Shown: positions 21,733 to 26,570 of the stretch, piece by piece
Layout: each line of letters begins with the position of its first letter
How positions within the stretch are numbered: position 1 is the first letter of the stretch
Source: Natronorubrum thiooxidans
Lineage (GTDB): Archaea; Halobacteriota; Halobacteria; Halobacteriales; Natrialbaceae
Reading direction: 5' to 3'
NCBI RefSeq assembly: GCF_900156475.1
Contig: NZ_FTNR01000006.1
Span: forward strand, 124,001-188,000
DNA length: 64,000 nt
Made by a program: the position numbers and the translations under genes
The notes under the pieces: model-generated
The model's database searches: none
What the model was told of the DNA's origin: nothing
Seen by the model: only the letters and a program-made list of their open reading frames with translations

Positions 21733-21960
21733 ATGAGTGGACGACCGCTTGACGTCCTCGAGGCGTCACTTGGCGAACGTGTTTCGGTACGACTCAAAAG
21801 TGGCGACGAGTACGTCGGCGACCTCGCTGGCTACGATCAGCACATGAATCTCGTGCTTGAGGACGTGACGATCCCCATCGGGGACGAAGTCGAATCGGAG
21901 TCGCCGGCCGAAGACACAACCATTATACGCGGCGATAACGTCGTTTCGATCACTCCATGA
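21733..21960 (+). CDS. lsm: Sm-like (LSm) RNA-binding protein
   Basis: A 75-aa archaeal LSm protein. The Sm1 motif ([31 protein letters not shown]) and the short Sm2 motif ([10 protein letters not shown]) are both present. It forms heptameric rings that bind small RNAs and U-rich tails. The stop overlaps the start of rpl37e (ATGA), the conserved haloarchaeal lsm-rpl37e operon. A TATA-like cgattaagtg lies about 30 bp before the ATG. Confidence 0.94.
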
Positions 21961-22133
21961 CTGGCGCAGGAACCCCGAGCCAAGGAAAGAAGAACAAGAC
22001 GACGCACACGAAGTGTCGTCGCTGTGGAGAGAAATCCTACCACACCAAGAAGAAAGTCTGCTCGTCGTGTGGCTTCGGTAAATCGGCCAAACGACGCGGC
22101 TACGAGTGGCAGTCGAAAACCGGCGACAACTGA
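21957..22133 (+). CDS. rpl37e: 50S ribosomal protein L37e
   Basis: A 58-aa zinc-ribbon ribosomal protein ([20 protein letters not shown]...). It shows [10 protein letters not shown] and [13 protein letters not shown], a Cys4 zinc finger, in a basic protein. The tail [10 protein letters not shown] is typical of L37e, a component of the large ribosomal subunit. It is translationally coupled to the LSm gene by a 4-bp overlap. Confidence 0.95.
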
Positions 22134-22262: not shown

Positions 22263-23456
22263 ATGGAGACGACGGACGCCTTTGTTGGCCTCGAGTGTGT
22301 CGACTGTGGGGCAACCTACGACGCCGCGGACGAACCGCACCAGTGTCCCGACTGCGGCGGGGCGCTCGATCCGAGCTACGACTACGACGCGATCGACCTC
22401 GATCGCGAAACGCTCGCGTCCCGACCGTTCGACTCGCTGTGGCGCTACGAGGAACTGCTTCCGTTCCCACGAGAGTCGGCGGTAACGATCGACGAGGGGG
22501 CGACGGCGCTGGTCGACTGTCCCGACCTGGCCGACGAACTGGGCGTCGAATGCCTGCTGATCAAAGACGACGGTCGAAATCCGACGGGGTCGACGGCTGA
22601 TCGTGGCCAGTCACTTGCGCTGACGGCGGCCAGCCAGCACGGTGCGACGGACATTGCGCTCGCGTCGACGGGTAACAGCGGGCAGTCAGCCGCTGCCTAC
22701 GCGGGCCGTGCTGGCCTCGAGTCCCACACCTACGTCCCCTCGCGCTCGAGTTTTTCGAACAAAGCCATGATCAACGTCCACGGCGGCGATATGAACGTCG
22801 TCGGCGGCCGCTTCGGTGACGCCGTCGGAGCCTCCGAGGAGGGGCTGGCCGAACACGACGACTGGTACTCGGTCCAGTCGTTCGTCACGCCGTATCGCCA
22901 CGAGGGCGCGAAGACGACCCTTTATGAGATCGTCGAGGAACTCGAGTGGGCAGTCCCCGACGTGATCGCCTACCCGACGGGTATCGGAGTCGGCCTCGTC
23001 GGGGCGTACAAGGCCGCAACGGAACTTCGAGCGCTCGGATTGATCGACGAGGTGCCCGCGCTGTATGCCGCCCAGGCGGCGGGCTGTGCGCCGATCGTCG
23101 ACGCGTTCGAGAACAATCGGGACGTCCACGAGCCGGTCGAGACGCCCGACACCATCTGTGGCGAACTCGAGATTCCGGACCCACCGGCGAGTCGGCGGGT
23201 ACTCGAGGCGCTGTCCGAGACCGACGGCGGGGCAATTGCAACCGAGGATCCGGACATCCTCGAGGCTGCAGTCCAGGTCGCCCAGCAGACGGGCCTCGAG
23301 CTGACGCCGAGCGCGGCGGCGGCCGCAAGCGGTGTGTGGGAACTCGCCGAGCGCGGCGCGTTCGACGGCGACGAGACGGTCGTCATCGTCAACACCGCCT
23401 CGGGGAACAAGGAGGGTGACGTGTTGCGCAGCCACCTGATGAGCCAAGGCGTATAA
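22263..23456 (+). CDS. threonine synthase-like protein lacking the PLP lysine
   Basis: A 397-aa fold-type II PLP-enzyme homologue. The N-terminal zinc ribbon (ECVDC...CPDCGG) and the order of motifs match archaeal threonine synthases. The PLP-ring motif STGNSGQSAAAY and phosphate loop YPTGIGVGLVGAY are intact. However, the segment that should read NPTGSFKDRG is NPTGSTADRG, so the Schiff-base Lys is Ala112. That makes normal PLP catalysis unlikely and suggests a pseudoenzyme or altered chemistry. The frame is intact, with no sign of decay. Start chosen at METTDAF. Confidence 0.82.
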   Translation: METTDAFVGLECVDCGATYDAADEPHQCPDCGGALDPSYDYDAIDLDRETLASRPFDSLWRYEELLPFPRESAVTIDEGATALVDCPDLADELGVECLLIKDDGRNPTGSTADRGQSLALTAASQHGATDIALASTGNSGQSAAAYAGRAGLESHTYVPSRSSFSNKAMINVHGGDMNVVGGRFGDAVGASEEGLAEHDDWYSVQSFVTPYRHEGAKTTLYEIVEELEWAVPDVIAYPTGIGVGLVGAYKAATELRALGLIDEVPALYAAQAAGCAPIVDAFENNRDVHEPVETPDTICGELEIPDPPASRRVLEALSETDGGAIATEDPDILEAAVQVAQQTGLELTPSAAAAASGVWELAERGAFDGDETVVIVNTASGNKEGDVLRSHLMSQGV

Positions 23457-23525: not shown

Positions 23526-24953
23526 TCAGTCGGTATCAGTTCGCGCAGCGATGCTCCCGTCCGCGCCGAACAGGGTCTCCGGGTCGTAGGTCGTCTTCAG
23601 GTCGGCCAGTCGCTCGTAGTTGTCGCCAAAGCGCAGTTTCGCGGGATCCTCGTTCAGCCCCGGGAAGTTGCCATAGCTTCCCGACGCAACCGCCAGTTCT
23701 GCCGCTTCGGCGATCCCGTCGCGACCCCAGGTCACGTTCGCGTCGTCGTCGGCTTCGTCCTCCCAGTTGGCCTCGAAGTTGAGCATGTACGGCTTGTCCC
23801 GGTGCCAGAACGCGGTCGCGTCCTGGGGCACGTCAGCGACGGCTCCACCGAGATGCCAGAGGTCGACCGTCGAGAGCGCCGACGGAGCTGACTCGGTGTA
23901 TCGCTCCATGATGTCGACGACCTCGTCGGTAACGTCGGTCAGGAAGATCGACTTCCAGTAGTAGCGCAGCCCGTCGGGGTAGTCCTCGTCGAGCATCGAC
24001 TGCAGGTCGGCGTACGCCATCGACCCGCTGAGGTCGGCGATCGGTGTCGCACTCGAGCGCAGCGGCTCAAAGACGTCGTCTTCAAGGTCGCCACGAGCCG
24101 TCCCGAGCATCGCGACGGCTGGCTCGCCCCACGCCTCCTCGGGGAACTCCTCGAGGTCGGGCACGTGAGCGGTGAACGCGAGCACACCTGCCTCCCGTGG
24201 CGCGTCATCGGTCCACTCGAGGAAGCATGCCATCACGTCGGTCATGTCGTCGGCGTGGAACCAGATGAAAAAGGCGTCCACCTCGGGGCCGACCTCGTGA
24301 AGTTCGAACTCGAAGGCGGTGACGATACCCAGCGTGCCGCCACCGCCGCGGAGTCCCCAGAACAGGTCCTCATTACGGTCGGCGCTGGCGGTGTGGACCT
24401 TCCCGTCTGCGGTGACGACGTCGACCGAACGCAGATTGTCCATCGCGAGCCCGTACTGGCGACTCAGGTGGCCGTAGCCGCCGTTGAGCGTCAGCCCCGC
24501 GACGCCCGTCTCCGAGACCGCACCGAGGGCCGTCGCCAGCCCGAACAGCTGTGTTTCGTGGTCGACATCGCCGAGCGTCGCGCCACCGTCGACGCGGGCC
24601 GTCCAATTCTCGGAGTCGACGCGCACGCCGTGCATCGGCGAGAGATCGACGACGAGCCCGCCGTCGCAGACGGCGGTTCCGGCAACGTTGTGGCCGCCGC
24701 ATCGAACCGCGAGCGGTAGGTCCTGCTCGCGGGCGAACGTCACCGCCGAAACGACGTCGGCGGTGCCGGCACAGCGGGCGATGATCGCCGGGTACTTGTC
24801 GATCATCCCGTTCCAGACCGCTCGTTCCCGTTCGTATTCCGGATCCGCCGGAAGCACGACGTCGCCGCCGAATCCCGTTTCGAACGACCGTACGGGCTCG
24901 CTCGGCAGGTCGGCGAGCGCTTTCTCACCCGGGTGTTTGTCAAATTGTGCCAT
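23526..24953 (-). CDS. FAD-linked oxidase (BBE/berberine-bridge type)
   Basis: A 475-aa flavoprotein of the PCMH/FAD_binding_4 family with a C-terminal BBE motif. RCGGHNVAGTAVCDGGLVVD carries the His to which FAD is probably bound covalently, and NGGYGHLSRQYGLAMDN and GGGGTLGIVTAFEFELHE are the FAD-binding loops. The C-terminal FGDNYERLADLKTTYDPETLF is the BBE segment. It would oxidise an alcohol, sugar or similar substrate with O2. It is divergent to a close paralogue at 25173, and the two share a promoter-proximal motif. Start at MAQFDKHPG, which lies just after a TATA-like element. Confidence 0.88.
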   Translation of the reverse strand: MAQFDKHPGEKALADLPSEPVRSFETGFGGDVVLPADPEYERERAVWNGMIDKYPAIIARCAGTADVVSAVTFAREQDLPLAVRCGGHNVAGTAVCDGGLVVDLSPMHGVRVDSENWTARVDGGATLGDVDHETQLFGLATALGAVSETGVAGLTLNGGYGHLSRQYGLAMDNLRSVDVVTADGKVHTASADRNEDLFWGLRGGGGTLGIVTAFEFELHEVGPEVDAFFIWFHADDMTDVMACFLEWTDDAPREAGVLAFTAHVPDLEEFPEEAWGEPAVAMLGTARGDLEDDVFEPLRSSATPIADLSGSMAYADLQSMLDEDYPDGLRYYWKSIFLTDVTDEVVDIMERYTESAPSALSTVDLWHLGGAVADVPQDATAFWHRDKPYMLNFEANWEDEADDDANVTWGRDGIAEAAELAVASGSYGNFPGLNEDPAKLRFGDNYERLADLKTTYDPETLFGADGSIAARTDTD

Positions 24954-24966
24954 GATATAAATTATA

Positions 24967-24975
24967 CCGCCAGTG
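24967..24975 (-). promoter_or_regulatory. CACTGGCGG motif upstream of the minus-strand FAD oxidase
   Basis: Read on the minus strand this is cactggcgg, directly after TATA-like tttatgat (24979-24985) and before the ATG at 24953. The same 9-mer in the same orientation relative to its gene is found upstream of the divergent paralogue. Confidence 0.5.
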
Positions 24976-25108
24976 ATCATAAACCAGTTTTACCGCAAAC
25001 GCGACGGTCCACCGCGTCGACGTGACGTGTGCGCGACGGATCGAGAATCGACGATAGGCCTCGAGTCACATGCTGATCGGGCGGTTTTCGAGTCTCTCTC
25101 GGCTCGAG

Positions 25109-25172: not shown

Positions 25173-26570
25173 ATGGCAGTAACTACCACACCCGTAGACG
25201 ACGGTGCAATAGACGGATTCGGCGAGGGGCTTCACGGCGAGTTGCTCCGTCCCGAGGATCCGAACTACGACGAGACGCGAGCGGTCTGGAACGGCATGAT
25301 CGACCGACGGCCGGCACTCATCGCTCGAGCGAGGGGTATCTCGGACGTGATCGCGGCGGTGGACTTCGCCCGCGAGCACGACATGGTGCTCGCAATTCGC
25401 GGTGCCGGACACAACATTGCAGGGAACGCGGTCTGTGACGACGGCCTGATGCTCGACCTCTCTGCGATGCGGTCGGTGCAGGTCGATCCGGAAGAGAAGA
25501 CGGCTCGAGTGGAACCGGGGGCGACCCTCGCCGACGTCGACCACGAGACGCAGGCGTTCGGGCTGGCGACGCCGCTGGGAATTAACTCGACAACCGGCGT
25601 CGCGGGACTGACGCTCGGGGGTGGATTCGGCTGGCTCACTCGCAGGTACGGCATGACCGTGGACAGCCTGCGATCGGTCGACGTCGTCACCGCCGACGGC
25701 AAGCTTCGTCACGCAAACGAGGACGAGAACGAGGATCTGTTCTGGGGCGTTCGCGGCGGCGGCGGCAACTTCGGTGTCGTCACCGCCTTCGAGTTCGACC
25801 TCCATGAGGTTGGACCGGAGGTGCTCACCGGGATGGTCGTCTACCACGGTGCGGACGCACCGGACGTCCTCCGACACGTGCGGGATTTCAACGAAACGGC
25901 ACCGGACGAGTCGGCCGTCTGGATGGTCCTGCGCAAGGCACCACCGCTTCCGTTCCTCCCGGAGGAGGTCCACGGTGAGGACGTCCTCGTCGTGGTTCCG
26001 TTCTACGCCGGTGACATGGCAGCGGGTGAGGACGTGCTCGCTCCGATTCGTGAGTACGGCGAGCCGATCGCCGATGTCGTCAGTCCACACCAGTACGCCG
26101 AGTTCCAGCAAGCGTTCGATCCACTGCTCGAACCGGGTGCGCGAAACTACTGGAAGTCACACAACTTCAGTACACTCTCGGACGAAGCCATCGAGACGGC
26201 AATCGAGTACGCACAGGAGTTGCCGTCGCCGCAGTCTGAAATCTTTTTCGCACAGCTCGGCGGCGCGATGAAACGCGTCCCGGCAGACGCGACGGCCTAC
26301 CCACACCGGGATGCGGAGTACGCGATGAACGTCCACACGCGCTGGGAGGATCCAGCGGACGACGACCGCTGTATCGCCTGGGCTCGAGCGTTCTTCGACG
26401 CGATGGCCCCATACGCGACCGGCGGCGTCTACATGAACTTCATCAGTGAGGACGAAGGCGAGGAAAACCTCGCCTACGGGACGAACCAGCAACGGCTGGC
26501 CGAAGTCAAGGCCGCGTACGATCCGGAGAACCTGTTCCGGATGAACCAGAACGTCAAGCCAGCGACGTAA
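25173..26570 (+). CDS. FAD-linked oxidase (BBE type), paralogue of the 23526-24953 gene
   Basis: A 465-aa flavoprotein with the same motif order as its divergent neighbour: IRGAGHNIAGNAVCDDGLMLD, GGGFGWLTRRYGMTVDSLRSVDVV, GGGGNFGVVTAFEFDLHEVGPE, and the BBE segment AYGTNQQRLAEVKAAYDPENLF. The first motif has RGAGHN instead of RCGGHN; the His is retained. The two proteins align over their full length, so this is a duplicated gene pair turned head to head. It is probably a soluble oxidase, substrate unknown. Confidence 0.88.
   Translation: MAVTTTPVDDGAIDGFGEGLHGELLRPEDPNYDETRAVWNGMIDRRPALIARARGISDVIAAVDFAREHDMVLAIRGAGHNIAGNAVCDDGLMLDLSAMRSVQVDPEEKTARVEPGATLADVDHETQAFGLATPLGINSTTGVAGLTLGGGFGWLTRRYGMTVDSLRSVDVVTADGKLRHANEDENEDLFWGVRGGGGNFGVVTAFEFDLHEVGPEVLTGMVVYHGADAPDVLRHVRDFNETAPDESAVWMVLRKAPPLPFLPEEVHGEDVLVVVPFYAGDMAAGEDVLAPIREYGEPIADVVSPHQYAEFQQAFDPLLEPGARNYWKSHNFSTLSDEAIETAIEYAQELPSPQSEIFFAQLGGAMKRVPADATAYPHRDAEYAMNVHTRWEDPADDDRCIAWARAFFDAMAPYATGGVYMNFISEDEGEENLAYGTNQQRLAEVKAAYDPENLFRMNQNVKPAT

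Follow-up and report, generated by a model that had tools for sequence, protein, structure and literature searches.

A lysine-less threonine synthase-like protein of Natronorubrum thiooxidans: a probable pseudoenzyme from a family with repeated, in-place loss of the PLP lysine

A gene that has lost the codon for the Schiff-base lysine of a PLP enzyme, and that still encodes a complete threonine synthase-like protein, raises the question of what its product is kept for. Such a gene occurs in Natronorubrum thiooxidans, in a window of 64,000 nucleotides (contig NZ_FTNR01000006.1, positions 124,001 to 188,000), to which all coordinates below refer. Its product, P0001, scores 326.3 bits against NCBIfam NF006050 / PRK08197 (curated cutoff 303), and automatic annotation would name it threonine synthase, a name implying an activity that, to judge from the sequence, would be impossible for P0001 by the usual mechanism. 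The gene could be decaying, it could encode an enzyme with another chemistry, or it could be maintained for a role in which the lysine is not needed.

The window protein and its PLP site

The initial annotation of a long and clean frame agrees with a direct reading of the sequence, in which the gene for this 397-residue protein starts with ATG at 22263 and ends with a stop codon at 23454–23456. Pfam assigns the PALP domain (7.6e-59), and the score against TIGR00260 thrC, 141.7 bits, is below the curated cutoff of 167.1. The AlphaFold2 model has the threonine synthase fold (fold type II; mean pLDDT 94.9), and the top Foldseek matches are ThrC structures with TM-scores to the query of 0.74–0.90, the best being Mycobacterium tuberculosis ThrC (PDB 2d1f; E 2e-29; 34% identity in the structural alignment). 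Alignment with solved threonine synthases (PDB 2d1f, 1uim/1v7c, 6nmx) is nearly full-length, covering residues 61–388, which is most of the protein. Also common to P0001 and the ThrC of its own genome are the frame NPTG-x-x-x-DRG and the N-terminal zinc ribbon, which had earlier been described as intact and indeed has all four cysteines (Table 1).

The replacement of the Schiff-base lysine by alanine, as originally noticed, is confirmed by the alignment with solved threonine synthases, in which A112 coincides exactly with the lysine of NPTGSFKDRG. Codons 111 to 113 read acg (T, 22593–22595), gct (A) and gat (D, 22599–22601). A sequencing or assembly error could be ruled out, since the separately sequenced Natronorubrum sulfidifaciens carries a protein (L039) that is 88% identical to P0001 and also has alanine at this position (SMADRG), and many other genomes lack the lysine as well. 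The accompanying claim that the other PLP motifs (STGNSGQ, GIGVG) are unaltered does not hold: Lys-bearing orthologues have SAGNAGQ and YPTGGGVGL at these positions, and a second lysine, K216, is also replaced by alanine.

A lysine-containing threonine synthase elsewhere in the genome, which the initial annotation had suggested looking for, was found as the canonical L002 (G000:C34), with the motifs NPTGSFKDRG, STGNTS and PVGNAGN. A second Lys-bearing ThrC-like gene, L003 (G000:C47), is present in the same genome. Two features of catalytic ThrC, the Schiff-base lysine of S-F-K-D-R and the phosphate loop G-N-A-G-N, are both absent from P0001, where the phosphate loop is PTGIGVG instead of PVGNAGN. 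The NSVNP segment of ThrC aligns with SFVTP in P0001 and with TFVTP in its Lys-bearing orthologues.

Table 1 Features of the P0001 gene and its upstream neighbours in the window
Feature	Position	Strand	Evidence or remark
LSm (Sm-like) protein gene, upstream neighbour	21733..21960	+	PF01423; same neighbour in Lys-bearing Natrialbaceae
Ribosomal protein L37e gene, upstream neighbour	21957..22133	+	PF01907; same neighbour in Lys-bearing Natrialbaceae
Threonine synthase-like protein P0001, lysine-less (probable pseudoenzyme), 397 aa	22263..23456	+	ORF, translation, Pfam, NCBIfam, AlphaFold, Foldseek
N-terminal zinc ribbon, residues 12–31 (C12, C15, C28, C31)	22296..22355	+	Cysteines kept in 88–99% of Lys-less rows
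Schiff-base loop, residues 106–115, NPTGSTADRG (Lys-bearing orthologues NPTGTFKDRG)	22578..22607	+	Orthologue comparison
Codon 112, GCT, Ala at the PLP Schiff-base Lys position	22596..22598	+	Read directly; alignment to solved threonine synthases
Substrate-carboxylate / O3' loop, residues 134–141, ASTGNSGQ (Lys-bearing orthologues ASAGNAGQ)	22662..22685	+	
Conserved segment N171–R183	22773..22811	+	N171 and R183 near-invariant in Lys-less and resident Lys-bearing copies; absent from relocated Lys-bearing duplicates
Codon 216, Ala; second Lys (EGKKT) in all resident Lys-bearing orthologues	22908..22910	+	Co-lost with K112
PLP-phosphate loop, residues 238–245, PTGIGVGL (Lys-bearing orthologues PTGGGVGL)	22974..22997	+	
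Segment P295–E303 (PDTICGELE)	23145..23171	+	P295, D296, G300 and E303 invariant in 128/128 Lys-less rows
C-terminal tail, residues 388–397, LRSHLMSQGV	23424..23453	+	Near-universal except in relocated Lys-bearing duplicates

Distribution, genomic locus and loss of the lysine

A first sampling by a scan of GTDB contigs yielded 78 haloarchaeal loci. Of 293 Halobacteriales genomes, 289 yielded a family member in profile searches (E≤1e-100), and about 249 of these have a single family copy according to the search table, and searches inside single families of the order gave a similar, near-universal presence. Outside Halobacteriales the matches fall to about 340 bits and lower, which by score is the range of ordinary ThrC.

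Reading 235 distinct members in detail allowed four classes to be distinguished. The 70 Lys-intact members have F-K-D-R, SAGNAGQ and PTGGGVG as well as the C-terminal tail, 15 are relocated and tailless but Lys-bearing, and 146 are Lys-less, in which any of 13 other residues takes the place of K112 (T, A, L, V, Y, R, D, F, I, H, Q, E, G). The remaining four (L011, L127, L043, L233; TSKDRG or TVKDRG) have K112 together with a decayed phosphate loop, and their lysine looks like an incidental return. The possibility that STADRG might mark a conserved subfamily did not survive this comparison, in which no constraint is apparent on the second and third letters (STT, SRT, SVR, TVL, TVY and others). 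Distant Lys-less members fall under the NF006050 / PRK08197 cutoff, as illustrated by L069 with 193 bits. A separate Lys-bearing ThrC-like subfamily with NPTNTFKDRG (NPTN rather than NPTG) is found in a few haloarchaeal genomes (L116, L278, L279, L286, L071).

Lys-bearing and Lys-less copies share one locus. In most Natrialbaceae, the lsm–rpl37e pair is located upstream of both kinds of copy, including the Lys-bearing L123 from the genus of the window, and outside this family the upstream neighbour of both kinds is a divergently oriented gene for an FAD amine-oxidase-like protein (PF01593). At loci with enough flanking sequence, the FAD gene adjoins 72 of 120 Lys-less and 24 of 66 Lys-bearing copies, and in Natrialbaceae it is, with few exceptions, separated from the family locus. 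Its product has weak similarity to HpnE/CrtI, and L339 of the window genome is a relocated counterpart (56% identical). For the 15 tailless Lys-bearing copies, the sequenced flanks examined did not contain the FAD gene in any case, and for this reason these copies are called relocated. Other neighbours in the window are a zincin-like metallopeptidase gene (PF10103; 20198–21187, minus strand) upstream of the lsm–rpl37e pair and, downstream of the P0001 gene, two adjacent divergent genes for berberine-bridge-type FAD oxidases (FAD_binding_4 and BBE; 23526–24980, minus strand, and 25173–26570, plus strand).

On a careful tree of 90 rows, from which the motif columns had been removed, parsimony requires at least 11 changes of the lysine state, or 9 if the pocket is scored as intact or not intact. 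The AU test rejects a single clade of all Lys-less forms (p=3.35e-13), and it also rejects uniting the Lys-less group of the Natrialbaceae with the Haloferacaceae/Haloarculaceae group (p=0.00685). A quick tree of 205 rows had united these groups; the separate origin of the two main Lys-less groups is accepted because of the 90-row tree, the AU test and the synteny. A single ancient Lys-less paralogue followed by differential loss was also considered, and was rejected on the basis of the 90-row tree, the AU test (p=0.007) and the synteny, which favours loss in place. The lysine was thus lost several times independently, in place. In G391 and G393, Lys112 alone is gone (TFTDRG) and SAGNAGQ and GGGVG are retained, which shows that loss of the site can begin with the lysine. 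Nested within a Lys-less group is L166 (G214), whose PLP site and tail are both fully intact, which suggests recombination or still more independent losses.

Selection, pocket decay and a possible second conserved site

If catalysis had become superfluous and the gene were turning into a pseudogene, the many losses of the lysine and the pocket would be expected, as would the larger average divergence of Lys-less rows (53% mean pairwise identity, vs 72% for Lys-bearing rows). However, open frames are long throughout the family, dozens of positions are invariant and the gene is retained almost universally. The median dN/dS (pairwise, Nei-Gojobori) is 0.173 for Lys-less pairs vs 0.180 for Lys-bearing pairs, and the value for P0001 vs L039 is 0.145. 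With a dN/dS of 0.17 and intact frames the pseudogene reading is largely refuted and was rejected; we find it hardly credible. What has decayed is the pocket. Among 179 positions that are near-invariant in resident Lys-bearing copies, retention in Lys-less forms is below 50% at 7 of the 12 positions that we take to be PLP-site positions from what is generally known of fold-type II enzymes, vs 18 of the 167 others (Fisher p=2e-4), and about 40 other positions stay invariant. The phosphate-loop residues G241, V243 and G244 decay alongside K112, as do F111 and A139, and K216 (EGKKT), which may be a catalytic-site residue in enzymes of this class, is present in 100% of resident Lys-bearing vs 2% of Lys-less rows.

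These observations bear on the possibility that P0001 is still a PLP enzyme, in which the cofactor would be held with no internal aldimine, or else by a lysine at another position, and a different base would carry out the proton transfers. The well-preserved fold would allow this, and Asn138 and Gly242 are kept in 68% and 98% of Lys-less rows, respectively. Nevertheless, the residues found at position 112 include no conserved replacement, and a relocated Schiff-base lysine was rejected since no position gains a conserved lysine in Lys-less forms, K101, K167, K217 and K383 being common to both forms. Loss of the lysine is accompanied by decay of the phosphate loop and of the ring-contact positions, which speaks against lysine-independent PLP chemistry, and we consider such chemistry very unlikely. 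Of the two options originally offered for P0001, a pseudoenzyme or an enzyme with lysine-independent chemistry, it is the former that gains support from the repeated loss, the 13 substitutes without a gained lysine, the pocket decay and the purifying selection (dN/dS 0.145–0.17).

Eight of the positions that stay invariant behave in the opposite way. N171, R183, P295, D296, G300, E303, M393 and G396, a set that was chosen after seeing the data, are each kept in at least 97% of 128 Lys-less rows, despite the mean pairwise identity of 53% among these rows, and almost all Lys-less lineages that were inspected read NRPDGEMG at them, whereas in the 15 relocated Lys-bearing duplicates the eight positions are kept in only 0–40%. 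The duplicates have also lost the tail RSHLMxxGI, while all 12 PLP-site positions are 100% kept. Since the relocated duplicates form a single clade, their loss of the invariant set counts as one event. Both copies were read for six genomes, and in each of these it is the resident one that lacks the lysine. This contrast is the pattern that subfunctionalisation would leave, with catalysis presumably in the relocated copy and another role in the resident one. In G130 a relocated Lys-bearing copy is the only one found at the threshold used, and the second role may therefore not be universal. In L223 and L224, whose PLP site is otherwise still intact, R183 is replaced by Q, as it is in L027, a Lys-bearing relative of the two.

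Possible roles of the lysine-less proteins

We consider it probable that P0001 is a folded pseudoenzyme, kept for a second, PLP-independent role of an ancestral PLP enzyme that likely consists of binding or regulation. The ancestor would have been a PLP enzyme with an added role needing neither the lysine nor the cofactor; this role would be what selection keeps in all members, and the PLP chemistry would be dispensable and could be shed in place many times. As far as can be judged from its residues, P0001 could not form an internal aldimine and would no longer bind or use PLP. Most likely its role is one of binding rather than catalysis, be it as a partner with no activity of its own or as a ligand-sensing subunit. 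The residues involved would be located around N171, R183 and P295–E303 and in the tail, on the scaffold of zinc ribbon and PALP domain, and the invariant residues may form one functional surface.

A PLP-independent enzyme is an alternative that we regard as unlikely, although it deserves consideration. In this case R161, K167, H173, R183, C275, D296 and E303 would constitute a different or re-used active site, and the invariant set does contain many residues that are polar or of a kind used in catalysis, they are conserved like an active site and purifying selection is strong. On the other hand, K167, H173 and G174 also match ordinary threonine synthases, which makes the set partly structural, and a PLP-free activity on this fold was not found in the literature searched. 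The preferred reading of a pseudoenzyme with a binding role can also be made more specific, with P0001 as a regulatory subunit of the catalytic ThrC of the same genome, as the initial annotation had suggested, or of the divergently encoded FAD amine-oxidase-like protein. The presence of a canonical ThrC in the genome and the occurrence of the FAD gene, both beside many loci of the family and elsewhere in the genome of the window, fit this proposal, for which there is also a precedent: in core eudicots, the TSB-like protein is a fold-type II pseudoenzyme retained as an activator of TSA (PMC12727527). Yet no co-fusion was found and in Natrialbaceae the FAD gene is mostly apart from the locus, so that this version appears improbable. 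In other organisms canonical ThrC needs no partner.

In the literature on haloarchaeal ThrC paralogues and lysine-less fold-type II proteins, we found only the TSB-like precedent and a Haloferax volcanii mutant with a transposon in thrC3 (HVO_2969), which is rescued by glycine, serine and threonine (PMC4300041). The latter is also a ThrC-type haloarchaeal gene, presumably of the canonical class of L002. TSB-like likewise derives from a fold-type II PLP enzyme, has given up catalysis and is retained in an allosteric or partner role, such as we propose for P0001, but it is a duplicate beside a working TSB and has TSA as its partner (PMC12727527), whereas the haloarchaeal case concerns a single resident gene with repeated lysine loss across an archaeal order. 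A pseudoenzyme as such is thus of a known kind; what is unusual here is that it arises in place, repeatedly and in a core gene.

Lys-less members such as P0001 that pass the NCBIfam threonine synthase cutoff are likely misannotated. When resident Lys-less copies are compared with relocated Lys-bearing ones, the two putative functions can be told apart at the level of single residues. It is conceivable, and we propose this tentatively, that the family is a core protein of the order with a universal PLP-independent job carried out by the second site (N171/R183/P295–E303 and RSHLMxxGI), and with an optional catalytic site that was shed in place, catalysis being confined in some genomes to a relocated duplicate without the second site; the second site would then have been overlooked owing to the threonine synthase annotation of the gene. 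Pseudoenzymes usually are duplicates beside a working copy, but here the single resident gene itself loses its lysine again and again under the same selection, an indication of a core function not yet recognised in haloarchaea.
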